From: Actinomadura sp. KC216
Lineage (GTDB): Bacteria > Actinomycetota > Actinomycetes > Streptosporangiales > Streptosporangiaceae
Length of the DNA stretch: 49,474 nucleotides
Assembly: GCF_004348535.1 (NCBI RefSeq)
Contig: NZ_SMJX01000020.1
Coordinates: 1 to 49,474, forward strand
Direction: 5' to 3'
Part shown: positions 12,176-47,073 of the stretch, one piece after another
Layout: every line of letters begins with the position of its first letter
How positions within the stretch are numbered: the stretch's first letter is position 1
Translations under genes and position numbers: made by a program
Notes under the pieces: model-generated
What the model was told of the DNA's origin: nothing
What the model saw: only the letters and a program-made list of their open reading frames with translations
The model's database searches: none

Positions 12176-12374
12176 AATCGATATTCACGACGCCTCTCCG
12201 CGTGTTCGGGAATAAAAGCTGGACGATCACGGCGAGAGCGGAATGGCGTCACTGGAGTCGTCCTGCATAGGCCAAAGCGCGGGATGTCACCGCGACGGCA
12301 ACCGGAACACGGTGGTGCGCGTCCCATCTAGGTCTAGTTCGTGGGTATATGGGAGAAACGCGAGGATTGTGGGG

Positions 12375-15300
12375 GTGCCGGTGGCCGGGGACGCGATGAC
12401 GCGGGAGCGGATCGGGCATCTCTACGACTACCTGGGCGCGCTCGCCCAGGAGGTTCACGCCAAACCCGTCCGGCATGTCGGGGAGCACGACATCGCCGTG
12501 TCGCCGGACGAGCTGCCCGCGCATCCCGCGGTGCGCGCCGGGGCGGCGGCCGGGGACGCGTGGCTGCGCGTCGGGAAGGTGCCGCGGCCGCTGCCGCCCG
12601 GGCTCCCCCTTGAGCTGCGCGAACGGTTCCGCGGCGTCGTGCGGGACGATCCGCGCGTCCCGCCGGAGGCCCCGGACGACCTCACCCCGGACGACGAGGC
12701 ATTGGTCGCCGCGTTCGAGCGGTGGCGGGAGGGGGTGTGGGCGCCCTGGGCGGAGGCGGCGCGGGACGTCCTCGCGGCGCGGCACCTGTACGAGACGTTG
12801 TTCCGGCTCCGGCAGCGGATGCGGGCGGACGAGGCCACGCACGAGCTGGTCTGGGGCCACGGCGTCCTCGGCTGGAGGCAGGGCGGGCAGCGCGTGTGCC
12901 ACCCGCTGCTGATCACGCGGGCGCGGATCGCGTTCGACGAGCGGTCCGGCGAGCTCTCGATCGTCCCGGACGGGCTGCCCGCGCTGGAGCTGGACTGCCT
13001 GCAGGGCCTTGGCGTCGCGGGGCTCGACCGGCTCACCGCGGTCGTGGAGCACGTGCGGGACGAGGCCGTCGACCCCTGGGCGCCGGACGCGACGCGCGCG
13101 CTGTACCGGCGGATCCTCGCACCGCTCGGCCTCGACGACCGGCTCGACGACGGCCACGCGCTGCCGGAGAGCGGAAGGGCGCCGGTCATCGCGGCGACGT
13201 GGCGGCTGTTCGTCCGCAGGCGCCGGGTGATGTTCCTGCGGTTCTTCGAGCAGCTCAAGGCCGCGGTCGCCGATGGGGAGCGGCTGCCCGCCCCGATGGT
13301 CGCGCTCGCCGCCGGGGAGGACGCGGCGCGCGAGGCCGTCGCGGTAGGGGACGGGGACTGGGCGCCGGTCGCCGAACGCCTGCTGCTGCCCCTCGCCGCG
13401 AACGACGAGCAGGAGCAGATCGCCCGCAAGCTCGCCCGGCACAGCGGCGTGACCGTGCAGGGCCCGCCCGGGACCGGCAAGAGCCACACCATCGCCAACC
13501 TCGTCTCGCATCTGGTCGCGCACGGCAAGCGGGTGCTGGTCACGGCGCACAAGGACCAGGCGCTCGCCGTCCTGCGGGAGAAGATCCCGCAGGAGCTGCG
13601 GGACCTGTCGCTGGCGGTGCTGGGGTCGTCGTCGGCGGAGATCACCGAGCTGCAGCGGTCCGTTCAGGCGATCACGGCGGCGGCCGACGGCGTCGACGAG
13701 GAGCGGGAGGAGCGGGCCGCGGCCGCGCTCCGGGACCGGCTCGACCGGGTGGAGGCGGACGTGGCGCTGCTGCGCAAGCGGCTCCGCGCGTCGCTGGAGC
13801 GCGAGCGGGAGAGCCTGGACGTCGGCGGGTTCCGGCGGACGGCGGCGGAGGTCGCCGAGTGGCTGGCCGAGCACGAGGGCGAGCTCGGCCGCGTCCCGGA
13901 TCCGCTCACGACCGCGTCCGAGTGCCCCCTGGACACGCGCGAGATCACCGAGTTCCACACGCTCGCCGCCGGGATCGGGCGGCAGGACGCGGTCGACGCG
14001 ACCCTGGACCTGCCGCCCGCCCGGCGGCTCCCCGCCGGTGCCGGGCTCACCGCCCGGTGGGACGAGCTGCGCAGGCTCGGCGAGGTCCTCGCCGGGCTCC
14101 AGGAGCACGGCGCCGACCTCGGCCGCGTCGACGGCGTCGCGCCGGAGGAGCTGGCCGCGCTCGCCGAGGAATGCGGGCACGCGGCGCGCACGCTCGGGAC
14201 GCTGCAGGAGCCGTGGGTGGCGCGGCTGCGGGGGCAGGTCGCCCAGAATCCGGGGTGGCGCGAGCTGTGGGCCGGGCACGCGCGGCGGCTGTCGGAGGAC
14301 GCCGCCGAATGCGGGCGGCTCCGCGCCACGATCGCCGGGTCGCTGATCGAGCTGACGGCCGCGCCCTACCGGGACACGCTCGCGCTGCTGGAGCAGGCGC
14401 GGGCGCGGTTCGCCCAGGGCAAGCGGGTGTCGCCGCTGGTGCAGCGCGGGCTCGCCCAGTTCCTGAAGACGACGCTGCTGGACGGCGAGCCGCCCCGCAC
14501 CGCCGCGGACATCGACAAGATCGCCGCGTTCGCGGAGCTGCGCAGGCGGCGCGAGACGGCTGCGCGGCTGTGGCACGAGGAGCTGGTCGCGGCGCTCGGC
14601 GCGCCCGTCCCGCCGGGCGCGGGCGGGGGCGCGGTGGAGGTCTGGATCGACGCCGAGGCCCAGAAGATCCATGCCGCGCTGGCCTGGGAGACCGAGCGGT
14701 GGCCACGGCTGCGCTCGCGGCTGGCGCGGGTGCTCGCCGACGAGGCGGTTCCGGCGCGTCCCGTCCCGGACGATCTGCACCGGTTCGCGACCGTGCTCGG
14801 CGGGTTGCAGGCGCGGGTGCGGCAGCGGCGGCTGCACGCGGACTTCGACTCCCTGGCCGCCTTCCTCGCAGAGGGCCGGGGCCGGGACGGCGCAAGCCCC
14901 CTCTGGACCGACCTGCTGACCGCCCTCGAACGCCACGACGCCGGCGCCTGGGACGCCGCGCTCGCGACCGCCACCCGGCTGGCCGCGTTGCGGCCCCAGG
15001 TGGAACGGCTCAACGAGCTGCACGCGCGGCTGGCCGCCGTCGCGCCGCGGTGGGCGCGGCTCATCCTGGAGTCGGGCGGTGACACCGGCGCGTGCGGCGA
15101 CCCCTCGCGGCTCGACGCGCTGTGGCGGTGGCGGCAGGCCGAGACCTGGCTCCGCGCGATCATCGACGCCGACGACCTCGGCCAGGTGCAGCGGCGGCTG
15201 GACGAGGCGCAGGAGGAGCAGCGCCGCCTCACGCTGGAGCTGACGCGGCGGTCCGCGTGGCTCGCGATGAAGCGGGGCCTCGGGCACACGCAGCGGCAGG

Positions 15301-16682
15301 CCCTCGTCGGCTGGCTGCAGACGCTCCGCAAGATCGGCAAGGGGACGGGCGTCAACGCGAACAAGTGGCGGGCCGAGGCGCAGCGGCTGATGCCGGAGGC
15401 GATGGGCGCCGTCCCGGTGTGGATCATGCCGTACTACCGGGTGGCCGAGTCGTTCGATCCCGCCGCCGCTCCCCCGTTCGACGTCGTCATCGTGGACGAG
15501 AGCAGCCAGTGCGACGTGTTCGCCCTCGGCCTGCTCGGCCTCGGGCACAAGGTCGTGGTCGTGGGCGACGACAAGCAGATCAGCCCGTCCGCCGTGGGCG
15601 TCCGCCGCGACCGCGTGGACGAGCTGATCCGCGCCCACCTGCCCGGCTTCCCCAACGCGCTGCTGCTGGACATGGAGTCGAGCCTCTACGACGCGTCCGC
15701 GCGGCTGTTCCCGGGCGTGGTGCGGCTGCGGGAGCACTTCCGCTGCCTGCCCCGCATCATCGAGTTCTCCTCGCAGCACTACTACGGCGGGGAGATCCAG
15801 CCGCTGCGGGAGGAGACCGCCGACCGGCCGCCGGGGCCCGCCGTCCGCGCCGTGCACGTCCCGGACGGCGTCCGCCGCGACCTGGCGATCGGGAACGTCA
15901 ACGAGGCGGAGGCGGACGCGGTCGTCGACCAGGTCGTCCAGTGCTGCTCCGACCCCGCCTACGACGGCCGCACCATGGGCGTCATCTCGCTGCTCGGGAC
16001 GAGCCGCCAGGCGCAGCTCATCGACGAGCGGCTGCTGGGCAAGCTCGGCCCGGAGGAGTACGAGCGGCGCCTGCTGCGCTGCGGCGACTCCTACGGCTTC
16101 CAGGGCGACGAGCGCGACGTGGTCTTCATCAGCGTGGTGTCGGACGGGGAGGGCGCGCCGTTCACGTCCCGGCGCTACGAGCAGCGGATCAACGTCGCCG
16201 CCAGCCGCGCCCGCGACCAGATGTGGGTGTTCCACAGCGTCCAGCCGCACCGGCTGCACCCCGAGGACCAGCGGGCCCGGCTCATCCGCTACGCGGCGGA
16301 CGGGCAGCGCTCCCCCGACCTCGCCCGCGACCTGGAGGCCCGCTGCGACTCCGGGTTCGAGCGCCGCGTGCTGCGCATGCTGCTCGCTCGCGAGTACCTC
16401 GTCACGCCGCAGCATCCCGTGGGGAACCTGCGCATCGATCTGGTGGTGCGCGGCGGCGGGCACAAGCTCGCGATCGAGTGCGACGGCGACAAGTTCCACG
16501 GCCCCGGCCAGTGGGAGGACGACCTGCGCCGCCAGGCCGTCCTGGAGCGGCTCGGCTGGCGGTTCTGGCGCGTCCGCGGCAGCGTCTTCTACCGCGACCC
16601 GGACGCCGCGATGTCCTCGCTCTGGCCCCTGCTCGGCACGCTCGGCATCACGCCTGACGACCCCGCCCGTATCGACTCCTGA
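12375..16682 (+). CDS. SF1 (DNA2/UPF1-like) helicase with C-terminal restriction-endonuclease-like domain
   Basis: A large protein of about 1435 residues. Walker A is QGPPGTGKSHTIANLV near residue 362. A long insertion rich in Arg/Glu helices follows, then Walker B VVIVDESSQCD near residue 1038, motif III VVVGDDKQISP, and motifs V and VI (SYGFQGDERDVVFISV, NVAASRARDQMWV). The last 110 residues form a Vsr/DUF559-like nuclease fold: RIDLVV, then LAIECDGDKFHG, and a terminal helix LGWRFWRVRGS. Helicase-nuclease fusions of this kind are frequent in anti-phage loci, but some may serve DNA repair. The frame is open from 12243, but 12243-12374 lacks coding character; GTG 12375, GTG 12381 or ATG 12396 are the likely starts. 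It stands alone. Confidence 0.8.
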   Translation: MPVAGDAMTRERIGHLYDYLGALAQEVHAKPVRHVGEHDIAVSPDELPAHPAVRAGAAAGDAWLRVGKVPRPLPPGLPLELRERFRGVVRDDPRVPPEAPDDLTPDDEALVAAFERWREGVWAPWAEAARDVLAARHLYETLFRLRQRMRADEATHELVWGHGVLGWRQGGQRVCHPLLITRARIAFDERSGELSIVPDGLPALELDCLQGLGVAGLDRLTAVVEHVRDEAVDPWAPDATRALYRRILAPLGLDDRLDDGHALPESGRAPVIAATWRLFVRRRRVMFLRFFEQLKAAVADGERLPAPMVALAAGEDAAREAVAVGDGDWAPVAERLLLPLAANDEQEQIARKLARHSGVTVQGPPGTGKSHTIANLVSHLVAHGKRVLVTAHKDQALAVLREKIPQELRDLSLAVLGSSSAEITELQRSVQAITAAADGVDEEREERAAAALRDRLDRVEADVALLRKRLRASLERERESLDVGGFRRTAAEVAEWLAEHEGELGRVPDPLTTASECPLDTREITEFHTLAAGIGRQDAVDATLDLPPARRLPAGAGLTARWDELRRLGEVLAGLQEHGADLGRVDGVAPEELAALAEECGHAARTLGTLQEPWVARLRGQVAQNPGWRELWAGHARRLSEDAAECGRLRATIAGSLIELTAAPYRDTLALLEQARARFAQGKRVSPLVQRGLAQFLKTTLLDGEPPRTAADIDKIAAFAELRRRRETAARLWHEELVAALGAPVPPGAGGGAVEVWIDAEAQKIHAALAWETERWPRLRSRLARVLADEAVPARPVPDDLHRFATVLGGLQARVRQRRLHADFDSLAAFLAEGRGRDGASPLWTDLLTALERHDAGAWDAALATATRLAALRPQVERLNELHARLAAVAPRWARLILESGGDTGACGDPSRLDALWRWRQAETWLRAIIDADDLGQVQRRLDEAQEEQRRLTLELTRRSAWLAMKRGLGHTQRQALVGWLQTLRKIGKGTGVNANKWRAEAQRLMPEAMGAVPVWIMPYYRVAESFDPAAAPPFDVVIVDESSQCDVFALGLLGLGHKVVVVGDDKQISPSAVGVRRDRVDELIRAHLPGFPNALLLDMESSLYDASARLFPGVVRLREHFRCLPRIIEFSSQHYYGGEIQPLREETADRPPGPAVRAVHVPDGVRRDLAIGNVNEAEADAVVDQVVQCCSDPAYDGRTMGVISLLGTSRQAQLIDERLLGKLGPEEYERRLLRCGDSYGFQGDERDVVFISVVSDGEGAPFTSRRYEQRINVAASRARDQMWVFHSVQPHRLHPEDQRARLIRYAADGQRSPDLARDLEARCDSGFERRVLRMLLAREYLVTPQHPVGNLRIDLVVRGGGHKLAIECDGDKFHGPGQWEDDLRRQAVLERLGWRFWRVRGSVFYRDPDAAMSSLWPLLGTLGITPDDPARIDS

Positions 16683-33663: not shown

Positions 33664-33896
33664 CCGCCGTCGCCCGCCTTTCCGTCTCCCCCTCTCGCCT
33701 CCCCTCACCGTCTCTCTCCGTGATCTCCCCCTGTCAGCGGCCGGTCACGCACCGGTACGGTGACGGGCACACGCGGCGGACGGTAGTTCTTCACACGCCA
33801 TTCGTTATTCCCGGTACTGGCCTATACCGGTCCGAACTGCGACGCTTTCTCCTGTGAGCGCCAAAACGGGCCGGCGCGCGAGGAGGGAATACCGCA
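33664..33896 (+). promoter_or_regulatory. Upstream region of the lanthipeptide operon
   Basis: This 233-bp gap carries CCGGTA-N8-TACCGG (about 33814-33833), an inverted repeat, and a related CACCGGTACGGTG element (33750-33762). An AGGAGGGA ribosome site precedes the GTG at 33897. It is the likely promoter for the synthetase-precursor transcript; no -10/-35 pair is assigned with confidence. Confidence 0.45.
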
Positions 33897-36518
33897 GTGG
33901 ACAAGGGGTACGAGCTTTACTGCCTCGCGGACAAGCTGTTCTACGACGCGCCACCCGTCACCCGCAGTACTGACTTCGGAATCACCGAACGTGACCTTCC
34001 GGCGGGCTGGGAGCAGATTTTCGGCGACGAGTGGGTCGTCTACGACCCGCCGGAGCGCCGCGCCCCGCTGCAGGGCTGGAAAGTGCACGTCTCGGGATGC
34101 GCGGAAAGCGCCACGGAGATCCTGTCCGGCGTCTGGGAATACTGCGTCGACAACGACATCGAGTTCAAACATCTGCGCGGCCCCGGCACGCTCCGGATGC
34201 GGAACGCCAAATACGCGCCGCGCGGGGCGAGCGGGAAGCTCGTCACGATCTACCCGGCGGACGAGCGCGAGCTGGAGCGCGTGCTGGCCGAGCTCGGCGC
34301 CCGCCTGGACGGCCTCCCCGGTCCCTACATCCTCAGTGACCTGCGGATAGGCGCCGGTCCCCTGCACGTGCGGTACGGCGGCTTCGCCGAGCGGCGCTGC
34401 CTGGACGAGCAGGGCAAGCTCGTCGCCGCGCTGGAGAACGGCGACGGGGAACTGGTGCCCGACCGCCGCGAGCCGGTCTTCTCCGTCCCCGACTGGGTGA
34501 CCCTTCCGGCGTGCCTGGAACCGCATCTCAAAGCGCGCGGCGCCACCACGACGACCGATCTGCCGTACCAGATCACCAAGGCGCTGCATTTCTCCAACGG
34601 CGGCGGCGTTTATGAGGCGACCGACACCCGTTCCGGGCGGAAGGTCGTCCTGAAAGAGGGGCGCCCGCATGCCGGGCTCGCCGCCGACGGAGCGGACGCG
34701 GTGACGCGCATCGAACGGGAGCGCGACGTTCTCCGCAAGCTCGCCGGAATCGACGGCGTGCCCGAGGCGCTCGACTGGTTCACGCTCGGCGAGCACCATT
34801 TCCTCGTCCAGGAGTTCATCGAGGGCCGGACGCTCAACACCTTCTTCGCGGAACGGCATCCGATGCTCGATCCGGACCCGGATCCGCAGAAGACGGCCGA
34901 TTATGCCGAATGGGCGCTGCGCGTCCACGCGGGCGTCGAGCGGGTGGTCGCCGCGATCCACGAGCGCGGTGTGGCGTTCAACGACCTGCACATGTTCAAC
35001 GTGATGGTCGGCCCCGACGACTCCGCCGCGCTGATCGACTTCGAGACGGCGGCGCCCGCGTCCGACCGCGGCCGGCAGACCCTCGCCAACCCGGCGTTCC
35101 TCGCGCCGCCCGACCGGCGCGGCACCGACGTCGACCTCTACAGCCTCGCGTGCCTGCGGCTGGCGCTGTTCGTCCCGCTGACCACCCTGTTCGTCATCGA
35201 CCGGGGCAAGGCGCCGCAGCTCGCCGACCTGATCGCCGCGAACTTCCCGGTGCCGCGGGCGTTCCTGGACGAGGCCGTCGAGGAGATCACGCGCGGCGCC
35301 GAGCCCATGGAGGCGCCCGAGTTCGTCCCGGACGCGCCCGGCCGGGCCCGCGCCAGGGACTCCCTGTCGCTGGCGATCCGCGCGAGCGCGACCCCGGACC
35401 GCGCCGACCGGCTGTTCCCCGGCGACCCCGAGCAGTTCGACGGCGCGTCGCTCGGGCTCGCGCACGGCGCCGCCGGCGTCCTGTACGCGCTGGACGCGAC
35501 GGGCGCGGGCCGCCTCCCCGCGCACGAGGACTGGCTGGCGGCGCGCGCCGCCGACCCGAGGCGCGGCACCGGCATCGGCCTGTACGACGGGCTCCTCGGA
35601 GCCGCGTACACGCTGGCCCGCCTGGGGCGCGGCGAAGACGCGCTCACCGCCGCCGACCACTGCCTGAACGAGCGATGGGAACGGCTCGGCGACGACCTGT
35701 ACGGCGGGCTGCCCGGCGTCGCGCTCGCCTTGGCCGACCTCGCCGAGACGACCGGCGAGACGTCCCTGCACGACGAGGCCCGCTGCGCCACCGAGATCGT
35801 CGCCGGGCGCACGGCGGACGCCGCCGGGGACGGCCCGACCGCACGCCCCGGCCTGATGCACGGCGGCGCGGGCGTCGCGCTGATGCTCATCCGCGCCCAC
35901 GAGCGGACCGGCGACGCGGCCCTGCTCGACCTCGCCGCCGCCGCGCTGCGCCGCGACCTCGCCGCCTGCGTCACCGACCACAACGGCGCGCTCCACGTCG
36001 ACCAGGGCAACCGGGTGTTCCCGTACCTCGGGCGCGGCAGCGTCGGGATCGGGCTCGTCCTGGACGAGTACCTCGCGCACCGCCCCGACGAGGAGTTCGA
36101 GCGAGCACAGCGCGGGATCCGGGTCGCCGCGATGTCCCGGTACTACGCGCAGCCGAGCCTGTTCGGCGGGCGCGCCGGGATGCTGCTCTACCTGGCCCGC
36201 CACGGCCGCGACGACGCGCGGGTCGCCGGGCACGTCCGCGACCTGGCCTGGCACGCGCTGCCGTACGCGGGCGGGCTCGCGTTCCCGGGCGAGCACATGT
36301 ACCGCCTGTCCATGGACCTCGCGACCGGCACGGCCGGCGTCCTGCTGGCCCTGGGCTCGGCCCTCCACGACCCGGCACCCGGCCTGCCCTTCTTCAGGAC
36401 GGACGAACTCGGGCGGGGGGACGACCCCTCGCACCCCCCGGTTCGCTCCGTTCAACTCGATGAGCTCCCCGTAGGAACACCTACGGCGGCCACCTCTATC
36501 CAGCCCGAAAGGAGGTGA
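33897..36518 (+). CDS. lanKC: Class III lanthionine synthetase (LanKC, RamC/AmfT-like)
   Basis: An 873-residue trifunctional enzyme that phosphorylates Ser/Thr in the precursor, eliminates phosphate to dehydroamino acids, and cyclises them with Cys. The N-terminal lyase part spans about 1-220. The kinase part spans about 225-480: ATP-binding Lys253 (VVLKEG), catalytic loop FNDLHMFN with Asp363, and metal-binding DFE at Asp381. The C-terminal LanC-like cyclase part spans about 500-860 and shows GLYDGLLGAAYTL and LMHGGAGVALML helices but no CHG-type zinc ligands, which separates class III from class IV. GTG 33897 follows AGGAGGGA. Its stop codon lies within the ribosome site of the precursor gene, so the two are tightly coupled. 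Confidence 0.93.
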   Translation: MDKGYELYCLADKLFYDAPPVTRSTDFGITERDLPAGWEQIFGDEWVVYDPPERRAPLQGWKVHVSGCAESATEILSGVWEYCVDNDIEFKHLRGPGTLRMRNAKYAPRGASGKLVTIYPADERELERVLAELGARLDGLPGPYILSDLRIGAGPLHVRYGGFAERRCLDEQGKLVAALENGDGELVPDRREPVFSVPDWVTLPACLEPHLKARGATTTTDLPYQITKALHFSNGGGVYEATDTRSGRKVVLKEGRPHAGLAADGADAVTRIERERDVLRKLAGIDGVPEALDWFTLGEHHFLVQEFIEGRTLNTFFAERHPMLDPDPDPQKTADYAEWALRVHAGVERVVAAIHERGVAFNDLHMFNVMVGPDDSAALIDFETAAPASDRGRQTLANPAFLAPPDRRGTDVDLYSLACLRLALFVPLTTLFVIDRGKAPQLADLIAANFPVPRAFLDEAVEEITRGAEPMEAPEFVPDAPGRARARDSLSLAIRASATPDRADRLFPGDPEQFDGASLGLAHGAAGVLYALDATGAGRLPAHEDWLAARAADPRRGTGIGLYDGLLGAAYTLARLGRGEDALTAADHCLNERWERLGDDLYGGLPGVALALADLAETTGETSLHDEARCATEIVAGRTADAAGDGPTARPGLMHGGAGVALMLIRAHERTGDAALLDLAAAALRRDLAACVTDHNGALHVDQGNRVFPYLGRGSVGIGLVLDEYLAHRPDEEFERAQRGIRVAAMSRYYAQPSLFGGRAGMLLYLARHGRDDARVAGHVRDLAWHALPYAGGLAFPGEHMYRLSMDLATGTAGVLLALGSALHDPAPGLPFFRTDELGRGDDPSHPPVRSVQLDELPVGTPTAATSIQPERR
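36508..36517 (+). promoter_or_regulatory. Strong ribosome binding site of the precursor gene
   Basis: AAAGGAGGTG, near-perfect complement of the 16S 3' end, spans the last codons and stop of lanKC and lies 6 bases before the precursor ATG. It decides the start and predicts high precursor translation. Confidence 0.85.
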
Positions 36519-36523
36519 AGAAC

Positions 36524-36634
36524 ATGGCGCTTCTCGACCTTCAGGGGATGACGAGCGAGAACGGCGGCGGCGGCGGCAACAGCAGCCTGAGCATCCTCTG
36601 CCACAGCTCGCACAGTGTCACGATCTGCCTGTAA
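36524..36634 (+). CDS. amfS: Class III lanthipeptide precursor (AmfS/SapB-like)
   Basis: A 36-residue peptide encoded 5 bp after lanKC. The leader starts MALLDLQGM, the LLDLQ box recognised by class III synthetases. A run of five glycines (residues 14-18) leads into the core SSLSILCHSSHSVTICL. The core holds two Ser-x2-Ser-x(2-3)-Cys units: S20-x-x-S23-x-x-C26 and S28-x-x-S31-x-x-x-C35. These are the sites for lanthionine or labionin rings, and the second half is close to the SSLSITTC end of SapB. Its product is probably an extracellular amphiphilic peptide that helps aerial growth, as SapB does in Streptomyces; that role is an inference. The gene is too short for routine gene calling. Confidence 0.95.
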   Translation: MALLDLQGMTSENGGGGGNSSLSILCHSSHSVTICL

Positions 36635-36643
36635 TGGCGGTCT

Positions 36644-36677
36644 GCGGCCATGGCCCCCTCACCGGGGCCATGGCCGC
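36644..36677 (+). terminator. Perfect 14-bp hairpin between precursor and exporter genes
   Basis: GCGGCCATGGCCCC, six-base loop CTCACC, GGGGCCATGGCCGC. It starts 10 bases after the precursor stop. Likely an attenuator or 3' stabiliser giving more precursor than exporter mRNA. Confidence 0.8.
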
Positions 36678-36695
36678 CCTCGTTCTGGAGCCCCC

Positions 36696-38387
36696 ATGAC
36701 CACCCTTCCCGCCGCGAGCCCCACGGCCGGCGCGAACAGGCTGCTGCTGCGCGCCGCCGGGCGCGCCCGCGGCTGGACCGCGCTCGTGGCGGCCGCCGCG
36801 CTGGCCGACGCCGCCGCGGCCGTGCTGCTCCCGTACGCGCTGGCCCGCGCCATCGACGCGGTGCCGCCGGGCGGGGCCCCGGCCGCCGCGGCGGTGTGGC
36901 CGTGCGTCGCGCTCGTCGTGGCGTCGGCCGTGGCGGAGGTGCTGTCGGAGCTCTCGACCGGCTGCGCGGCGGCGCGGTCGACGGCCTGGCTGCGGCACAC
37001 GCTGGTCAGGCACGTCCTCGCGGTCGGTCCCGCGCTGCGGGTCCCGCCGGGCGACGTCGCCGGGCGCGTGGTCGGCGGCGCGGCCGAGGCCGGGGTGGCG
37101 CCCGCCGCCGCGCCGGAGGCCGCCGTGGGCCTGGTGCCCGCCGCCGGGGCGCTGGTCGCGCTGTTCCTGATCGACTGGCGGGTCGCGGCGGCGATCGCGG
37201 TGGCGCTGCCGGCGATCTTCCTGCTGCTGCGGGCGTTCGTCCGCGACATCAGCGCGACCGCGCACCGCTACCTCACCGTCCAGGGGACGATCGCGGGCCG
37301 CCTCGCCGAGGCCCTCGCCGGATGCCGGACGATCGCCGCGGCCGGAACGGTCGACCGCGAGACCGTCCGCGTCCTGGAGCCGCTGCCCGGGCTGCGCGCC
37401 GAGGGCGAGACGATGTGGCGGGTCCAGGGCGGCATCGCGGCGCGCGGGCTGCTGGCGCTGCTGCTCCTGCAGATCGCGGCGGTCGGCGTCGCCGGCATGG
37501 AGCTCGCGGCGGGACGGGTCTCGCCCGGCGAGCTGGTCGCGATCGTCCAGTACACGGGGCTCGCGGCCGGGTTCGGTCCCGTCCTGACGCAGGTGCTCCG
37601 CCTCGGCCGCGCCCGCGCGGGCGCCGCCCGCGCCGCCGAGATCCTCGCGCTCCCCGCGCCCGGGCACGGCGACGAGACCCTCGCGTCCGGCCCCGGCCGC
37701 CTCGACTTCCGCGGCGTCACCGCCGCGGGCGGCACGATCGACGGCCTCGACCTGACCGTCCCGGGCGGCCTCGCCGTCGCCGTCACCGGACGCTCCGGCA
37801 CCTCGGAGCTGGCCGCGCTCGCCGGCCGCCTCACCGACCCCGACCAGGGCGAGGTCCTGCTGGACGGCACGCCGCTCCCCCGCCTCACCCGCACCGAACT
37901 GCGCCGCGAGATCGGCTACGCGTTCGCCCGGCCCGCGCTGTTCGGCGGCACCGTCCGGGACGCGCTCGCGTTCGGTCCGTCGAGCCCGCCGGACGCGTGG
38001 CTGCGCGAGTCGGCCCGGGCCGCCCGCGCCGACGACTTCATCCGCCGCCTCCCGCACGGCTACCAGACCCCCCTCGCCGACGCGCCGATGTCGGGCGGCG
38101 AGCTGCAGCGGATGGGCCTCGCGCGGGCGTTCGCGCACGCCGGGCGTGTCCTGGTGCTGGACGACGCGACGTCGAGCCTCGACACCGTCACCGAGCTGCA
38201 GATCACCGACGCGCTGCTGCACCGGCTCGGGGACCGCACGCGGCTGATCATCACGCACCGGGCGTCCACGGCGGCGCGCGCCGACCTGGTCGCGTGGCTG
38301 GAGGACGGCCGCGTCCGCGCCCTGGCCCCGCACGCGAAGCTCTGGCGCGACCCCGACTACCGGGGGCTCTTCGGGGGTGCCGGGTGA
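36696..38387 (+). CDS. ABC exporter half-transporter with degenerate Walker A (AmfA/RamA-like)
   Basis: A 563-residue protein with six membrane helices (about 20-320) and a C-terminal ATPase domain. The signature MSGGELQ (465-471) is intact, but Walker A is GRSGTSEL (365-372): the invariant Gly-Lys pair at 370-371 is Ser-Glu. Walker B is VLVLDDATSS, where the catalytic Glu is Asp490. The H-loop His is present (IITHRAST). This half-transporter therefore cannot form a normal ATP site with its own Walker motifs, but donates a good signature to its partner. ATG 36696 follows GGAG; its stop overlaps the next start (GTGA). It probably exports the lanthipeptide together with the next protein. Confidence 0.9.
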   Translation: MTTLPAASPTAGANRLLLRAAGRARGWTALVAAAALADAAAAVLLPYALARAIDAVPPGGAPAAAAVWPCVALVVASAVAEVLSELSTGCAAARSTAWLRHTLVRHVLAVGPALRVPPGDVAGRVVGGAAEAGVAPAAAPEAAVGLVPAAGALVALFLIDWRVAAAIAVALPAIFLLLRAFVRDISATAHRYLTVQGTIAGRLAEALAGCRTIAAAGTVDRETVRVLEPLPGLRAEGETMWRVQGGIAARGLLALLLLQIAAVGVAGMELAAGRVSPGELVAIVQYTGLAAGFGPVLTQVLRLGRARAGAARAAEILALPAPGHGDETLASGPGRLDFRGVTAAGGTIDGLDLTVPGGLAVAVTGRSGTSELAALAGRLTDPDQGEVLLDGTPLPRLTRTELRREIGYAFARPALFGGTVRDALAFGPSSPPDAWLRESARAARADDFIRRLPHGYQTPLADAPMSGGELQRMGLARAFAHAGRVLVLDDATSSLDTVTELQITDALLHRLGDRTRLIITHRASTAARADLVAWLEDGRVRALAPHAKLWRDPDYRGLFGGAG

Positions 38388-40240
38388 GGAGCAGGCGGGA
38401 AGCGGCGCGGGTGCTCCGGCAAACGGTCGGCGGCGCCGTCAAGGCCCGGCCGCGGGCGGTCGCGCGCGCCGCCGCGTGGTCGGCGGTCGAGGCGGTGCCG
38501 ACGGCGGTGTTCGGCCGCGCGGTCGGCGAGGCGGTCGACGCGTTCCGCACGGGACGCACCGCGGACGCGGCGATCTGGCTCGGCGTCCTCTCCCTGGCGG
38601 CGGCTGCCGGGGCATTCGGCAGCCGCCGCCTCTACCCCGCGCTCGCCGAGATCGTGGAGCCGTTCCGCGACGACCTCGTCCGCCGCGTCGCGGACGGGGC
38701 GCTGCGCCGCTCCCTGGCCGGGCGGCCGGACACCGGCGCGGTCGCGCGGCTCACGCACCAGGTGGAGATCGTCCGGGACACCTTCGGCGGGCTGCTCGTC
38801 GTCGTTCGCGGGTTCCTGTTCGCGACCGGCGCGGCGCTGATCGGCCTGGTCACCCTGATGCCCGAGGTGGCGCTGCTGGTGGTGCCGCCGCTGGTGCTCG
38901 GGCTGCTGCTGTTCGGGGCGGTGTTCGGCGCGGCGGCCGTCCGGCAGCGGGCCCTGGTCGTCGGCGAGGAGGAGATCGCCGAGCGCACCACGGCGCTGGC
39001 CGAGGGGCTGCGGGACGCCGTCGCCTGCGGCGGCGAGGACGCGATCCGCGCGGAGCTGGGCGCCGCGGTGGAGGCGCAGGCCGCGGCCGGTCGCGCGGTG
39101 GCGCGGTTCGCGGCGCTCCGCGCCGTCTCGCTTGCGGTGAGCGGATGGCTGCCGCTGCTGCTCGTCCTGGCGGCGGCGCCGTGGCTGATGCGGCGCGGCG
39201 CCACGCCGGGGGTCCTGATCGGCGCGCTGACCTATGTCCTGCACGGGCTGCAGCCCGCGCTGCGGACGCTCGTGCACGGCATGGGCGGCAGCGGGCTGCG
39301 GCTGGCGGTGACGCTCGCCCGCATCCTGGAGACGAGCGCGCCCGCCCCGCCCGCCCGGCCGGAGGCGGCGCCGCCCGTCGCGGGCGCGCCGGCCGTCGAG
39401 CTGCGCGGGGTGTCGTTCGCCTACGGGGAGGGCGCGCGGCCGGTGATCGAGGACCTCGACCTCGTCGTCCCGTCCGGCGGCCATCTCGCCGTGGTCGGCC
39501 CCAGCGGGATCGGGAAGTCGACGCTCGCCGCCCTCATCGCGGGCCTCGTCTCCCCCACCGCCGGGGAGGTGCTGGTGGACGGCCACCCGCCCGGCGACCC
39601 GGACCGGCGGGTCCTCATCCCGCAGGAGGCGTACGTGTTCAGCGGCACGCTGCACGACAACCTGGCCTACTACGCGCCGGACGCCGCACCCGGGCAGGTG
39701 GAACGCGCGGCGGACGAGGTCGGGCTGGCGCCGCTCGCCGAGCGGCTCGGCGGGTACGGCGCGCGGCTCGTCCCGGCGGACCTGTCGGAGGCCGACCGGC
39801 AGCTCATCGCGCTGTGCCGCGCCTACCTCGCACCGCAGCCGATCGTCATCCTGGACGAGGCCGCCTACCGGCTCGACGCGTCCGCGGAGGCGCGGGCGGA
39901 GGAGGCGTTCGCGCGGCGCCCGGGCACTCTGATCGTCATCGCGCACCGGATCAGCTCCGCGGCGCGGGCGCGGCGCGTCCTGGTCCTGGACGGGACCCGC
40001 GCGCAGGTCGGCCGGCACGCCGACCTGCCCGCGGTCTCGCCCCTCTACCGGGATCTCATCGGCCGGTGGGAGTCAGGGCCCGGCCGCGGTTCAGAGCCAG
40101 CCGGCCTCCTCGGCGATCCTGATGGCGTGGATCCGGTTCTGCGCGCCGACCTTGCGGTTGATGCGGGACAGATGGTTGCGGACGGTGCCGATCGTCAGGA
40201 CGAGGTCCTCGGCGATCTGCGCCGCGGACGCGCCACGTGA
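38384..40240 (+). CDS. ABC exporter half-transporter with degenerate signature motif (AmfB/RamB-like)
   Basis: A 618-residue protein: six membrane helices (about 15-320) and an ATPase domain. Walker A GPSGIGKST (372-380, Lys378) and Walker B VILDEAAYRLD with catalytic Glu492 are intact, whereas the ABC signature is LSEADRQ (467-473) instead of LSGGQ. These defects complement those of its partner. GTG 38384 overlaps the partner's stop. After the normal end of the domain (LYRDLIGRWE), the frame runs about 55 more residues, overlapping the convergent response regulator by 150 bp. The extra tail (GLLGDPDGVDPVLRADLAV...) is Asp-rich and looks like antisense reading of the regulator's HTH. Confidence 0.9.
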   Translation: MRSRREAARVLRQTVGGAVKARPRAVARAAAWSAVEAVPTAVFGRAVGEAVDAFRTGRTADAAIWLGVLSLAAAAGAFGSRRLYPALAEIVEPFRDDLVRRVADGALRRSLAGRPDTGAVARLTHQVEIVRDTFGGLLVVVRGFLFATGAALIGLVTLMPEVALLVVPPLVLGLLLFGAVFGAAAVRQRALVVGEEEIAERTTALAEGLRDAVACGGEDAIRAELGAAVEAQAAAGRAVARFAALRAVSLAVSGWLPLLLVLAAAPWLMRRGATPGVLIGALTYVLHGLQPALRTLVHGMGGSGLRLAVTLARILETSAPAPPARPEAAPPVAGAPAVELRGVSFAYGEGARPVIEDLDLVVPSGGHLAVVGPSGIGKSTLAALIAGLVSPTAGEVLVDGHPPGDPDRRVLIPQEAYVFSGTLHDNLAYYAPDAAPGQVERAADEVGLAPLAERLGGYGARLVPADLSEADRQLIALCRAYLAPQPIVILDEAAYRLDASAEARAEEAFARRPGTLIVIAHRISSAARARRVLVLDGTRAQVGRHADLPAVSPLYRDLIGRWESGPGRGSEPAGLLGDPDGVDPVLRADLAVDAGQMVADGADRQDEVLGDLRRGRAT

Positions 40241-40696
40241 GGCGAGCTCGAGCACCTCGACCTCCCGCTCGGTGAGCGGGCTGTCCATCGACCCGAGCTC
40301 GGTGAAGGCCATGTCGGCGTCGATGACGCGCGACCCGTTCGCGGCGCGCCGGATCGCGTCCACCAGGTCCCCGGGCGAGGTGTCCTTCAGGACGAGACCG
40401 GCCGCCCGCGCCGCCACCGCGCGGCGCAGGTCACCGGGCCTGCGTTTGCCCGACATCAGGACGGTGCGGCACTCGGGCACCGCCTCGCGAAGCGCGCACG
40501 CGGCGTCGAAACCGTCCATGCCGGGGAGCCCGACGTCGATCAGCGCGACGTCGGGCCGCCGTCTGCGCGCCGTCGGAAGCACCTGCTCACCGGTTCCTAA
40601 CGCGGCGACGACATCGAGATCCTTCACATCCGAGAACAACGCGACCAACCCGCCGCGGAGGAGGGGCGCCCCCTCGGCGAGCAGTATGCGAATCAT
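40091..40696 (-). CDS. NarL/FixJ-family response regulator (RamR/AmfR-like)
   Basis: A 201-residue regulator. The receiver domain carries the phospho-acceptor position Asp54 (ALIDVGLPGMDG) and the conserved Lys in LVLKDTSPGDL, but the usual acidic pair at the start is reduced to AEG (residues 7-9), so metal-dependent phosphorylation may be weak. The LuxR-type HTH is LTEREVEVLELASRGASAA then TIGTVRNHLSRI. No histidine kinase gene is nearby, as with RamR of Streptomyces, which activates the ram operon. AGGAGA precedes ATG 40696 by 6 bases. It converges on the exporter operon and probably activates the lanthipeptide genes; this is an inference from locus layout. Confidence 0.9.
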   Translation of the reverse strand: MIRILLAEGAPLLRGGLVALFSDVKDLDVVAALGTGEQVLPTARRRRPDVALIDVGLPGMDGFDAACALREAVPECRTVLMSGKRRPGDLRRAVAARAAGLVLKDTSPGDLVDAIRRAANGSRVIDADMAFTELGSMDSPLTEREVEVLELASRGASAAQIAEDLVLTIGTVRNHLSRINRKVGAQNRIHAIRIAEEAGWL

Positions 40697-41003
40697 TTTC
40701 GTCTCCTAGCCTTGGCGCGCGGCGATACGCGGCAAAGCAGCCACGGCCTGCGCGAATGCTTTGCCCGAATCGCATTCTGATCCCTAATCGCACTCTGACC
40801 AGGGGGGACGGGCGGAGAACGGGTGGGAAGACCGGGCTGGGCCGGACAAGAGCGATCTTCCATGGGGGCCACCTTGACGGAGATATAGTCAGCGGGATGA
40901 CCTACCGCCCGGAGTCAACACTATTCGCGGCGTCATTGTAAAGAGCGTCACAAAGGGCCATTCCGGTCGCACATATACCGCGAAAACCCTCCGCTACACA
41001 TGA
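40697..41003. other. Upstream region of the response regulator gene
   Basis: This 307-bp gap is upstream of the regulator and downstream of the cyclodeaminase-like gene, both on the minus strand. It is AT-richer than its surroundings, contains the direct repeat at 40768-40801, and no convincing small gene. Confidence 0.5.
40768..40801. promoter_or_regulatory. Direct repeat, two 16-bp copies with 18-bp period
   Basis: AATCGCATTCTGATCC and AATCGCACTCTGACCA differ at three positions and start 18 bp apart, 72-105 bp upstream of the response-regulator start. LuxR-type regulators such as RamR bind tandem direct repeats, so this is a candidate autoregulatory site. Confidence 0.5.
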
Positions 41004-43259: not shown

Positions 43260-43350
43260 TTTCTGCGTCTTTCGTCTGCCTTGACGCTTCCATCGCGATG
43301 ACCGGGTCCTCCGGTGCACCGGCAGGGTGCGCCCAACCCCCCGTGGAGGC

Positions 43351-44424
43351 ATGTTGAAGATCACCAAGAGGCGTGTGCTCACCGTCGCCGTTCCGGCGTC
43401 GACGGCCGCTCTCGTGGCGGGTGCGCTCGCCGTCGCTCCCACCATGACCACGACGTCGGCCGCAGCTCCCGTGGCCGCCGCCGCTCCCGCGAATCCCGGC
43501 GACACGTCAGCGAAGCTCGCCGAGCGGCTCGGCGCCCGGTCCGCGGGCTCCTACCTGAAGGGCGGCAAGCTCGTCGTCACGGTGACCGACGCCGAGGCCG
43601 CGCGGACCGTGCGCGACGCGGGCGCCGTCCCGCAGACCGTCGCGCGCAACGGCTCCTACCTCAAGAAGGTCATGTCCGCGCTCAAGCGGGACGCGACGAT
43701 CCCGGGCACCGCCTGGGCCGTCGACCCGGCCGCCAACCAGGTCCTGCTCACGCTGGACAGCACCGTCACCGGCGCGAAGCTGAAGAAGGTCCAGGCCGCC
43801 GCGGCCAAGCACGGCGCGGCCGTCCGGACCGAGCGGGTCGCCGGGAGGTTCCAGAAGTTCACGCTCGGCGGCGAGGCCATCCGCACCGGCGGATCCCGCT
43901 GCTCGCTGGGCTTCAACGTCAAGAAGGGAAGCGAGTACTACTTCGTCACCGCCGGGCACTGCACCAACATCGGCACGACGTGGACCGACAGCTCCGGGCG
44001 CACGCTCGGCAACGTGACGGGCAGCAGCTTCCCCGGTAACGACTACGGCATCGTGAAGTACTCGTCCGCTCCCGCCGACACCCAGGGCGCCGTCAGCCTC
44101 TATGGCCAGGGCACCCGGGACGTCACCGGCGCCGGCAACGCGGCGGTCGGGCAGCAGGTGACGCGCAGCGGCAGCACCACCCAGGTGCACAGCGGCTCCG
44201 TCAACGCCCTCAACCAGACCGTGAACTACCAGGAGGGCAGCGTCAGCGGCCTGATCCGCACGAACGTGTGCGCCGAGCCGGGCGACAGCGGCGGCTCGCT
44301 GATCGCCGGGTCGACCGCGATCGGCCTGACCTCCGGCGGCAGCGGCAACTGCTCGTCGGGCGGGACGACGTTCTTCCAGCCCGTCACCGAGCCGCTGCAG
44401 GTGTACGGCGTCGAGGTCTACTGA
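43351..44424 (+). CDS. Secreted streptogrisin-like S1 serine protease with pro-domain
   Basis: About 357 residues. A signal peptide (residues 1-38, [20 protein letters not shown]) is followed by a pro-domain (about 45-170, including [19 protein letters not shown]), then the mature S1 protease from about [17 protein letters not shown]. The triad is TAGHC (His), GNDYGIV (Asp) and EPGDSGGS (Ser); the C-terminus [10 protein letters not shown] is typical of streptogrisins. The pro-domain is expected to fold the enzyme and be cleaved off. Either ATG 43351 or TTG 43354 may be the start; the TTG has the same 4-base spacing to GGAGG as protease 1. It is paralogous to protease 1. Confidence 0.92.
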
Positions 44425-44521: not shown

Positions 44522-45259
44522 TCAGGGGGCGGCGGGGACTTCGAGCGTGCGGAGGATCTCCGCGATGACGTCCTGCTGCCGTTCGACCAGGTAGAAGTGC
44601 CCGCCGGGCAGGACGGTGAGCGCGAACCGCCCGTCGGTGACCTCCGCCCATCCGGCGGCCTGCCGCTCGGTCACCTCCGGGTCGTCGTCCCCGATGATCG
44701 CGGTCACCGGGACGGTCAGCCGGACGCCCGCCCGGTGCGCGTAGTTCTCGACCAGCGCGAAGTCGTTCCGGACGTACGGCAGGACGAGCTCGCGCAGCTC
44801 CGGGTCGCGCAGCGCCTCGGCGTCGGTGCCGCCGAGCTTCACCATCTCCTCGATCACGCCGTCATCGTCCCGGTCGGAGATGCGGGCGTCGTCGCGGTCG
44901 TGCGGCGGGCACGTGCCGGACACGAAGAGATGGACCGGGGCGGTGCCCCGCTCCTGCAGCAGCCGCGCCACCTCGTACGCCACGACGGCGCCCATGCTGT
45001 GCCCGAACAGCGCGGCCGGGCGGTCGATCAGCGGCGCCATCGCCCCGGCGATGAGCCGGGCGAGCTGGTGCGCGTCGGCGACGAGGGGGTCGCCCATCCG
45101 GTCGGCGCGTCCCGGGTACCGGACGGCGTGGACCTCGACGGCCGGGTTGATCTCCTTGGCCCACGACCGGTAGAACACCGCGGACCCGCCCGCGTGCGGC
45201 AGGCAGAACAGCCGCAGCGACGCCCAGGGACGGCTCTCGGCGCAGTGGAACCAAGTCAC
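44522..45259 (-). CDS. Type II thioesterase (alpha/beta hydrolase)
   Basis: A 245-residue soluble enzyme of the RifR/TEII family. The opening RLFCLPHAGGSAVFYRSW, the nucleophile elbow FGHSMGA, and GGHFYLVE with the catalytic histidine are all present; the acid is likely in IIGDDDPEV. TEIIs remove wrong acyl or aminoacyl groups from carrier proteins of PKS or NRPS systems. No PKS or NRPS gene lies in this window, so it may serve a distant cluster. GTG 45259 follows GAGGAG by 7 bases. Confidence 0.9.
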   Translation of the reverse strand: MTWFHCAESRPWASLRLFCLPHAGGSAVFYRSWAKEINPAVEVHAVRYPGRADRMGDPLVADAHQLARLIAGAMAPLIDRPAALFGHSMGAVVAYEVARLLQERGTAPVHLFVSGTCPPHDRDDARISDRDDDGVIEEMVKLGGTDAEALRDPELRELVLPYVRNDFALVENYAHRAGVRLTVPVTAIIGDDDPEVTERQAAGWAEVTDGRFALTVLPGGHFYLVERQQDVIAEILRTLEVPAAP

Positions 45260-45405
45260 GTGATCACTCCTCCTCACGGCGGCGGACGCGCCGGTCTCCG
45301 CCGCCACCCTAAGGCCCCGCGCGCCGGGCCCCCGAACGCCTGGCCCCGGACGCGGGTGCGGCCCCGGACGCCCGCGAGAGCGCCCGGGACCGCGTCGGCC
45401 AAGCG

Positions 45406-47073
45406 TCAGAAGCGCAGGCCGTAGGCGCGGGTCACGGTCTGCTGGACCGAGTTCCCGGAGCCGTCGGAGGCGTTGAAGCGCAGGGCCACAAAGCCGTTGT
45501 GCGACCAGGGATGGGTGACGTTGCCGGTCCAGCGGTCGGTGCCGCTGACGGTCAGCGGCACGTTGACCCAGGTGGCGCCGTCGTTGAAGGACGCCTGCAG
45601 CGAGATCGAGGACACCGCGGACCCGCCCGTGGCACGCTCCACGGCCACGGTCAGCGGGAACGTCGTGCCGGGCGCCGCGCGCCCGCTGCTGTCGAAGGCG
45701 CCGGTGATCCGCGGCTGGAGCAGGCTGTGCTGGTTCTCGAACGGGTCTCCGGGCCGTTCGGCGGAGGTGAACGTCCACCGCGCGTCGATCTTCGTGACGT
45801 ACTTCGACCAGCCGGTGGTGCGCTGCGTCGACATGACCGCCTGGTAGGTGGCGGACTCGGGCGGCACCGCGAAGTCACCGGCCAGCGGGTTGGTGCTCAC
45901 GCCGACCAGTGCCCCGTTGCGGTAGAGGGTGACCGTGCCGGTCGTCCCCCTGGTGGTGTTGCCGCTGAGGTTCTCGTGGCCCTGCTGGCCCGTGTTCGTC
46001 ACCAGCGGACGGACGAAGATCGTCCCCTCCCCGTGCCCGACGTTCACGGTCGGCCCGAACGCGGCCTTGTTGAACGTCTCGGAATGGGTGCCGCCCGCCG
46101 TGTACGCGCGCCACGCGAGCTGGTTCTCCGGCACCTGGACGGTGTCGAGGTTGTAGAAGTAGCTGCCCTTCCACTTCACGTTGTTCGCGGAGTAGTAGAC
46201 CTGCTGGCTGCTCGGCGCGCTGGCGGGAATGGTGAGCCCGAGCGTCTCCCCGCCGATGCCGCTGAAGTCGATGAGCGAGACGTGCGGCCCGACGCCCTCG
46301 GAGGGGATCCCCTGGGACGCGAAGGTCGTGTTCACCAGCGCCAGGTTCCCCGCCGTCGCGGTGAACGTCAGGTTCGCGGGGATCCGGCCGGTCGTCGAGA
46401 ACGCGAGCTTGTACGCCCGCGTGTTCGTCGGCTCGGTCTTGGCCTCGGCGTAGGTGAAGTGGTACGGCCGGGTCGTGCTGGCCGACGGCCAGCTGCGCAG
46501 GGTGGTCCCCGGCCGGCCGCTCACGGTCGCGGAGATCTCCTGCCCGGCGATCGTCTGGATGATCTGGGCGTGGCTGTGGAACTCGGTCGCGGTCGCCGAC
46601 GGGCTGACCGACGTGATCTCCGTGGCCGTCCGGGCGTCCATGGTGAGGTCGACGTCACCGGACACGGTCAGCGTGGGGTTGCCGTACAGGGCCAGGTCCG
46701 TTGGCGCGAACGGGTCGCCCGTGAGGACGATCCCGGTCAGGCTGTAGTCGCCGGCCGGGACGACGCCGGTGAGCGTCGCACCGGACTCGGTGAGCGGGTA
46801 CTCCGCGCCGCTCGCCAGATCGATCAGGCTCGCCAGGGGCGCCACCGCCTGGCCGTCGAGATTGATGCCGCGGAGCGTGATCGCGTGGTCGGCCGCCGCG
46901 CTGACCCGCGCGGGGGGCTTGATCTTGCTGTGTCCCAGCTTGAAGTAGGGCTTCCCGGACAGAAGATCGCGTGCCTGGGGCTTCTTGGCCTCGTCGGCCG
47001 CGGCCGTCTGTACGGGGACGAGTAACGCCGCGATGGCGGCGACACTGATCAGGGCTGTTCTCCAGCGCCTCAC
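45406..47073 (-). CDS. Large secreted protein, non-catalytic, beta-rich
   Basis: A 555-residue secreted protein with a clear signal peptide (RRWRTALISVAAIAALLVPV, cut near AAADEA). The rest is Thr/Ser/Gly-rich with strand-forming repeats. The order of segments (ITLRGINLDGQAV, VPAGDYSLTGIV, then AYTAGGTHSETFN) resembles the non-catalytic C-terminal half of large actinomycete subtilisin-type (S8) peptidases. No catalytic Asp-His-Ser triad is visible, so it is not a protease by itself. It may be an orphaned accessory domain protein or a binding module. Its promoter lies within 47074-47233. Confidence 0.7.
   Translation of the reverse strand: MRRWRTALISVAAIAALLVPVQTAAADEAKKPQARDLLSGKPYFKLGHSKIKPPARVSAAADHAITLRGINLDGQAVAPLASLIDLASGAEYPLTESGATLTGVVPAGDYSLTGIVLTGDPFAPTDLALYGNPTLTVSGDVDLTMDARTATEITSVSPSATATEFHSHAQIIQTIAGQEISATVSGRPGTTLRSWPSASTTRPYHFTYAEAKTEPTNTRAYKLAFSTTGRIPANLTFTATAGNLALVNTTFASQGIPSEGVGPHVSLIDFSGIGGETLGLTIPASAPSSQQVYYSANNVKWKGSYFYNLDTVQVPENQLAWRAYTAGGTHSETFNKAAFGPTVNVGHGEGTIFVRPLVTNTGQQGHENLSGNTTRGTTGTVTLYRNGALVGVSTNPLAGDFAVPPESATYQAVMSTQRTTGWSKYVTKIDARWTFTSAERPGDPFENQHSLLQPRITGAFDSSGRAAPGTTFPLTVAVERATGGSAVSSISLQASFNDGATWVNVPLTVSGTDRWTGNVTHPWSHNGFVALRFNASDGSGNSVQQTVTRAYGLRF

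Follow-up and report, generated by a model that had tools for sequence, protein, structure and literature searches.

A SapB/AmfS-type lanthipeptide locus in Actinomadura sp. KC216 whose short first core unit is common to its relatives

Introduction

Does the class III lanthipeptide locus at positions 33,897 to 40,696 of a 49,474-nt stretch of DNA from Actinomadura sp. KC216 (NZ_SMJX01000020.1; this whole stretch is "the window" below) encode a new kind of peptide, or another member of a family already described? The locus comprises, in order, a synthetase gene (lanKC), a short precursor gene (lanA), two ATP-binding cassette half-transporter genes (ABC1 and ABC2), and a response regulator gene convergent to them. 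The same five gene roles are described for ramCSAB-ramR, the SapB locus of Streptomyces coelicolor, and for amfTSBA-amfR, the AmfS locus of S. griseus (PMC4255298, PMC9739842). The original prediction, made from the DNA letters alone, had recognised this arrangement and proposed that the product is probably a new SapB-like morphogen or signalling peptide.

We find that the KC216 locus is a new, uncharacterised, ordinary member of a very common family: ordinary because its predicted short first ring is common to close relatives, and common in that SapB-type peptides are described as the commonest lanthipeptide family (PMC7268733). Very probably this is a class III system of the SapB/AmfS family, in which a two-unit precursor is cyclised by LanKC, likely exported by ABC1 and ABC2, and likely acts as a surface-active morphogen in aerial growth; of these properties, we infer ring chemistry, export and morphogenetic function from sequence.

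Results

The locus and its relatives

All five genes lie where the original prediction had placed them and are matched by family models (Table 1), and the SapB/AmfS assignment is backed by family models, gene order and relatives alike. The locus has the order lanKC-lanA-ABC-ABC together with an orphan NarL-type regulator, and shares with SapB and AmfS an LLDLQ-type leader, two Ser/Ser/Cys units and the two ABC halves. We compared it with a set of 80 named loci and 82 precursors, comprising 27 Thermomonosporaceae loci (29 precursors) and 53 other loci (53 precursors). The full order, with the regulator at the same place and on the same strand, recurs in 21 of the 27 Thermomonosporaceae loci, the other six ending at contig ends, and in 42 of the 53 others, nearly all from Streptomycetaceae. 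Among the Thermomonosporaceae loci, 18 of 27 have a LuxR-family regulator upstream and 14 of 27 an ornithine-cyclodeaminase-like gene downstream. Of 65 genomes of the genus, 40 give a RamS match and 40 a strong match to the KC216 LanKC. In four Streptomycetaceae loci (L075, L082, L106, L113) the regulator directly follows the precursor, and the locus gave no match to ABC1.

The claim that the locus is complete proved too strong: a family-model search found no leader-protease or peptidase domain in the five encoded proteins. A listed open reading frame at 38377-40122 was considered as the second transporter and rejected, since neither Pfam nor NCBIfam has a family that matches this frame.

The precursor and its short first unit

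The precursor gene translates to MALLDLQGMTSENGGGGGNSSLSILCHSSHSVTICL (36 residues), with an AGGAGG just 5' of its ATG that overlaps the 3' end of lanKC. When precursor families were searched with this peptide, as had been proposed, it matched Pfam RamS at 47.2 bits (cut-off 24.3) and NCBIfam SapB_AmfS_lanti at 43.6 bits (cut-off 25). For 16 equal-length Actinomadura genes, a set that omits L056 as well as L042 and L063 (whose 36 codons are offset against each other by indels), the ratio of nonsynonymous to synonymous polymorphism (pN/pS) is 0.14, with 0.15 in the first half and 0.13 in the second; it is 0.34 over 18 genes when L042 and L063 are included. Because of the family-model matches and the pN/pS of 0.14, we conclude that the precursor is under purifying selection and is not a chance reading frame. 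Whether such a gene is easily missed depends on where one looks: two public hidden Markov models detect it, but about 55% of class III precursors were unannotated in the database used by one survey (PMC7268733).

The LLDLQ box, invariant in the 18 genes compared, is followed by the core NSSLSILCHSSHSVTICL, made up of unit A, Ser20-x2-Ser23-x2-Cys26, and unit B, Ser28-x2-Ser31-x3-Cys35, and including Thr33. KC216 differs from SapB and AmfS, whose cores we take to have three residues (x3) before the first Cys, in having two (x2) there and in the HSSHS of unit B. The precursor thus combines an LLDLQ-type leader box with two units of the form SxxSx(2-5)C, the motif range given for class III (PMC11251773). 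The narrower durhapeptin-type pattern, both units SxxSxxxC, is absent, unit A having x2; this pattern marks a sub-type and is not a feature of the family models. Durhapeptin, from Streptomyces durhamensis, is reported to share the LLDLQ leader, two tandem units and a five-gene ram/amf-like locus, and to differ in having x3 in both units and two labionins, which mass spectrometry supports in an engineered variant (PMC13380574).

The sequence differences from SapB noted in the original prediction are real, unit A having two residues before its Cys, but they are not peculiar to the KC216 strain, and the novelty claimed for the product mostly falls. Two other named strains, Actinomadura sp. KC06 and A. 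soli, have an identical core, NSSLSILCHSSHSVTICL. They also share the gene order and flanks and have a LanKC 91% identical to that of KC216, while their precursors have Val where KC216 has Thr at leader residue 10; relatives already carry the NCBI label "SapB/AmfS family lanthipeptide".

The short first unit extends well beyond these strains. All 29 Thermomonosporaceae precursors have x2 before the first core Cys, versus 1 of the 53 others (L118, S. aculeolatus), of which 51 have x3 and one lacks the unit altogether. The x2 state requires two changes on a LanKC tree built from 58 rows. A wider protein search returned 351 relatives, and the best 120, gathered with a query rich in the x2 type, comprise 107 with x2 and 10 with x3. 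On these counts the Ser-x2-Ser-x2-Cys unit is a lineage-wide sub-type and not a new kind, because the published class III motif already permits x2 to x5 (PMC11251773). Compared with most Streptomyces versions, the predicted first ring is shorter by one residue.

The histidines of unit B are more widely scattered. HSSHS or HSSNS is found in 27 of 29 Thermomonosporaceae precursors versus 15 of 53 others, and also in two Thermomonospora precursors; P0073 and P0121 of that genus share the LLDLQ leader and a KHSSHS second unit, and differ from KC216 in an x3 first unit and a DK linker. Because the motif occurs in other families and in Thermomonospora, HSSHS on this distribution predates the genus Actinomadura.

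A second RamS type was also seen. Among 30 RamS places fetched, 20 are of the short type found in KC216 and 10 are of a 43-46-residue type with x3 spacing (L009, L011, L012, L017, L018, L022, L033 and L036 to L038). The longer type has Thr in the first unit and PSNLS in the second, and where measured the adjoining LanKC is 54-57% identical to that of KC216.

Table 1. Coordinates of features at the KC216 locus, numbered along the window
Feature	Position	Strand	Basis or remark
Conserved element with imperfect TCACG-N7-CGTGA dyad, candidate regulator site	33782-33820	+	footprint; starts 115 bp before lanKC
lanKC, class III lanthionine synthetase (lyase, kinase and zinc-free cyclase domains)	33897-36518	+	GTG start, 873 aa
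lanA/ramS-like precursor gene, 36 codons	36524-36634	+	ATG start; Pfam RamS, NCBIfam SapB_AmfS, pN/pS
Leader region, LLDLQ recognition box then Gly run	36524-36577	+	sequence; 3' boundary (cleavage point) predicted
Core NSSLSILCHSSHSVTICL, 18 residues	36578-36631	+	sequence, spacing counts; rings predicted
RNA hairpin, 14-bp perfect stem, 6-nt loop, no T-run behind	36644-36677	+	directly 3' of precursor; z -3.57
ABC1 half-transporter	36696-38387	+	ABC_tran and ABC_membrane
ABC2 half-transporter	38384-40240	+	GTG start; ABC_tran 71 bits
RamR/AmfR-like response regulator, NarL type	40091-40696	-	Response_reg and GerE; convergent to operon
ABC2/regulator tail-to-tail overlap, 150 bp	40091-40240	both	ABC2 stop TGA is regulator Ser153 codon TCA read backwards

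The LanKC synthetase

LanKC scores 1089 bits against NCBIfam lanthi_synth_III (cut-off 575) and 384.6 bits against the class IV model, below its cut-off of 650, and matches RamC_N, Pkinase and LANC_like domains. Its closest solved chain is the kinase-domain structure 7wj6 (413 bits), which we take to be CurKC, the curvopeptin synthetase of Thermomonospora curvata. A CurKC kinase-domain structure is on record in the ThurKC paper (PMC10604976), which also served as our reference for class III kinase motifs and loss of zinc ligands. The KC216 protein has the kinase motifs DFE and NDLHMFN, and its cyclase lacks zinc ligands, with SLFGGRAG and YLGRGSVG where a second protein of the same genome has GQCHGLSG and YWCHGAAG. 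That second protein (L002, contig C52) is a LanKC-like synthetase with Cys-His cyclase motifs that scores 506 bits, below the class III cut-off, and is probably a LanL of class IV; no precursor turned up next to it in a motif search.

Asp771 matters for labionin formation in ThurKC (PMC10604976), and KC216 has Gly at this position; the position varies among 32 Thermomonosporaceae rows, and we do not forecast ring type from it.

The transporter

The half-transporters are each degenerate in one ATPase motif. ABC1 has a degenerate Walker A (GRSGTSEL, lysine lost) and an intact signature (MSGGE); ABC2 has an intact Walker A (GPSGIGKST) and a degenerate signature (LSEADRQ, glycine lost). In an ABC dimer, each ATP site pairs the Walker A motif from one half with the signature from its partner, so loss of the ABC1 lysine and the ABC2 glycine leaves one composite site degenerate; the second, formed by ABC2 Walker A and ABC1 signature, is intact in KC216. 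Counted by alignment column, lysine and glycine are both lost in 13 and both kept in 11 of 24 Thermomonosporaceae loci, and among 43 other loci both are kept in 40 and glycine alone is missing in 3. Despite this perfect pairing (13 vs 11) we rejected independent co-evolution of the two degenerate motifs, because the 11 double-loss loci placed on the LanKC tree all fall in one supported clade, so that one change suffices (L153 and L154 are absent from the tree). The pattern agrees with a single origin, within part of Actinomadura, of an asymmetric heterodimeric exporter.

The regulator and candidate regulatory elements

The KC216 regulator is 36-52% identical to those of other loci, and the end of ABC2 lies inside its gene. 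Of 17 Actinomadura loci, 16 have an overlap of exactly 150 bp; in the Actinoallomurus clade it measures 138 bp in three of six loci, and elsewhere 159-171 bp in 28 of 42. All 17 distinct Actinomadura regulators use TCA for the serine antisense to the ABC2 stop, a codon that serves only 2 of the 143 remaining serines of these genes; in other families TCA stands three codons earlier (28 of 45 rows). Because the overlap is conserved and its codon rare, we read the ABC2 end inside the regulator as kept on purpose or by constraint. Set against this are one exception, L055, where the ABC2 frame stays open for 552 bp of antisense, and the absence of the long overlap from L058, L083 and L091 (three of the six Actinoallomurus-clade loci) and from 14 of the 42 others (L090 being a partial alignment). 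Synonymous variation is lower within the overlap (0.223 vs 0.348), which a conserved DNA-binding domain could also explain. Two families have retained the long operon/regulator overlap by way of a rare codon, and this suggests a feedback link; feedback of operon transcription on the regulator is our guess.

A conserved block begins 104-116 bp before the lanKC start codon in 20 Actinomadura loci, with 25-35 of its 39 bases alike under a site finder that always returns the best match. Its dyad, counted in the same sequences on which the motif was defined, is present at 8 or more of 10 bases in all 28 Thermomonosporaceae upstream regions (shuffles 0.147) and 38 of 53 others (shuffles 0.175), and at 9 or more in 22 of 28 (shuffles 0.009) and 21 of 53 (shuffles 0.015). 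A 12-base core pattern, allowing at most one mismatch, occurs once in the 9.06-Mb genome, upstream of lanKC, so a wider regulon was not found at that stringency. A matrix built from the Actinomadura 39-mers was unconvincing on 10 streptomycete lanKC upstream regions (best scores -2.5 to -55.7, vs at least 50.9 for its own members); the shorter dyad, unlike this matrix, partly recovers streptomycete sites.

The hairpin behind the precursor gene has its stem kept in 19 of 20 Actinomadura rows, the L051 row being partial, and compensated two-sided changes in 6 of 14 pairs. L059 (Actinoallomurus) and L067 (Streptomyces) showed no such hairpin, and Rfam gave no match at E up to 0.5. The hairpin is likely a 3'-end stabiliser or attenuator.

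A tandem direct repeat (~18 bp) lies upstream of the regulator at 40764-40800. We considered it as a conserved element 5' of the regulator gene and rejected it, as the second copy is present only in KC216 among 16 aligned loci.

Discussion

We propose that the response regulator would activate the operon through the candidate upstream element. LanKC would then bind the LLDLQ box, phosphorylate core Ser residues, eliminate the phosphate, and close lanthionine or labionin at Ser20/Ser23/Cys26, the short unit, and at Ser28/Ser31/Cys35. The hairpin may protect or end part of the transcript, leaving more precursor than transporter mRNA, and ABC1 and ABC2 would pair as a heterodimer in which one ATP site works and the other is degenerate. 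The leader would be removed by a protease encoded elsewhere, because the five genes lack a peptidase domain; actinobacterial class III clusters are described as usually without a protease (PMC7268733). Separately, an open reading frame at 43327-44421, 2.6 kb beyond the regulator, has an alpha-lytic protease prodomain (41.5 bits). The amphipathic peptide would act at the colony surface beside chaplins, for which the genome has 8 domain matches spread over two open frames; in Streptomyces, aerial growth is supported by chaplins and by SapB-like peptides (PMC4255298).

Several points weigh against this account. The family-model search found no leader protease domain in the five genes. The locus is dispensable, since 25 of 65 genus genomes have no RamS match. 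The synthetase is no predictor of ring type, since LanKCs of the same type yield products with lanthionine only, labionin only or both (PMC13380574), and durhapeptin, of the SapB family, triggered aerial hyphae in some species only, its own producer not being among them (PMC13380574). As to regulation, besides the circularity of the dyad counts, the KC216 copy of the dyad matches only 8 of 10 bases.

A bolder version of the proposal would make the locus a SapB sub-type of the Thermomonosporaceae's own, with a contracted first ring, a possibly metal-binding HSSHS ring, a one-site exporter, a precursor-favouring hairpin and antisense feedback through the overlap; we regard this combination as doubtful.

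Biosynthesis could also be just as described and the peptide mainly an antimicrobial or other exported bioactive, not a morphogen. In three genus genomes (L159-L161), class III clusters have two precursors each, with ILELQ leaders and cores of the WECC type; we presume these clusters to resemble those of the labyrinthopeptins. The labyrinthopeptins of Actinomadura namibiensis, themselves class III, have other activities (PMC13380574, PMC6027269), which lends this idea some substance. On the LanKC tree, however, the KC216 synthetase groups with the streptomycete RamC/AmfT-like, ram/amf-context set and not with the ILELQ/WECC type; the gene order is that of ram/amf, with a RamR-like regulator, and no immunity gene stands out among the genes scanned. 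We therefore consider a mainly antimicrobial role quite unlikely.

We think it very unlikely that KC216 has an intact locus that is silent or in decay. The lost lysine and glycine of the transporter and the frequent loss of the locus in the genus would point that way, but in each of the group's 13 loci both transporter losses fall on a single composite site, the other site is intact in the rows compared, all frames are open, and precursor pN/pS is low.

Least credible is that the HSSHS histidines are used chemically, giving a metal-binding or His-crosslinked noursin-type product and not a plain SapB surfactant: the histidine motif is kept in most Thermomonosporaceae precursors and some others, the core also has Thr33, and the noursin LanKC makes labionin and a His-to-butyrine link in a copper-binding peptide (PMC10206099), yet the L055 and L056 precursors have lost both His, NorKC-type synthetases are described as a group separate from RamC with a distinct cyclase (PMC10206099), and the KC216 LanKC is unlikely to be a noursin-type LanKC(Hbt) because it groups with ram/amf-context LanKCs.

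Under the reading we favour, a SapB/AmfS-type morphogen system, KC216 offers a short-ring sub-type from outside Streptomyces that is open to testing. It comes with a candidate operator and a predicted mass, the calculated [M+H]+ of NSSLSILCHSSHSVTICL being 1900.926 unmodified and 1828.883 after loss of four waters. Only a limited number of SapB-type peptides have been demonstrated to be morphogenetic (PMC13380574). An antiSMASH call of "SapB 75%" is in print for another Actinomadura (PMC8631618), and in the open-licence PMC literature we found no experimental description of a SapB-like peptide from the genus. Beyond the short-ring sub-type and the overlap, our results confirm a well-known system in one more genus; the overlap, hairpin, degenerate ATP site and dyad are side findings of moderate interest.

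Other genes in the window

Two further genes in the window deserve mention. A thioesterase-domain protein (185 bits) is encoded on the minus strand at 44525-45778 and may belong to another biosynthetic locus. The gene at 12243-16682 encodes a protein of 1479 residues, possibly for defence, that combines AAA_11/AAA_12 helicase parts with a REase_MTES_1575 nuclease domain at its C-terminus.

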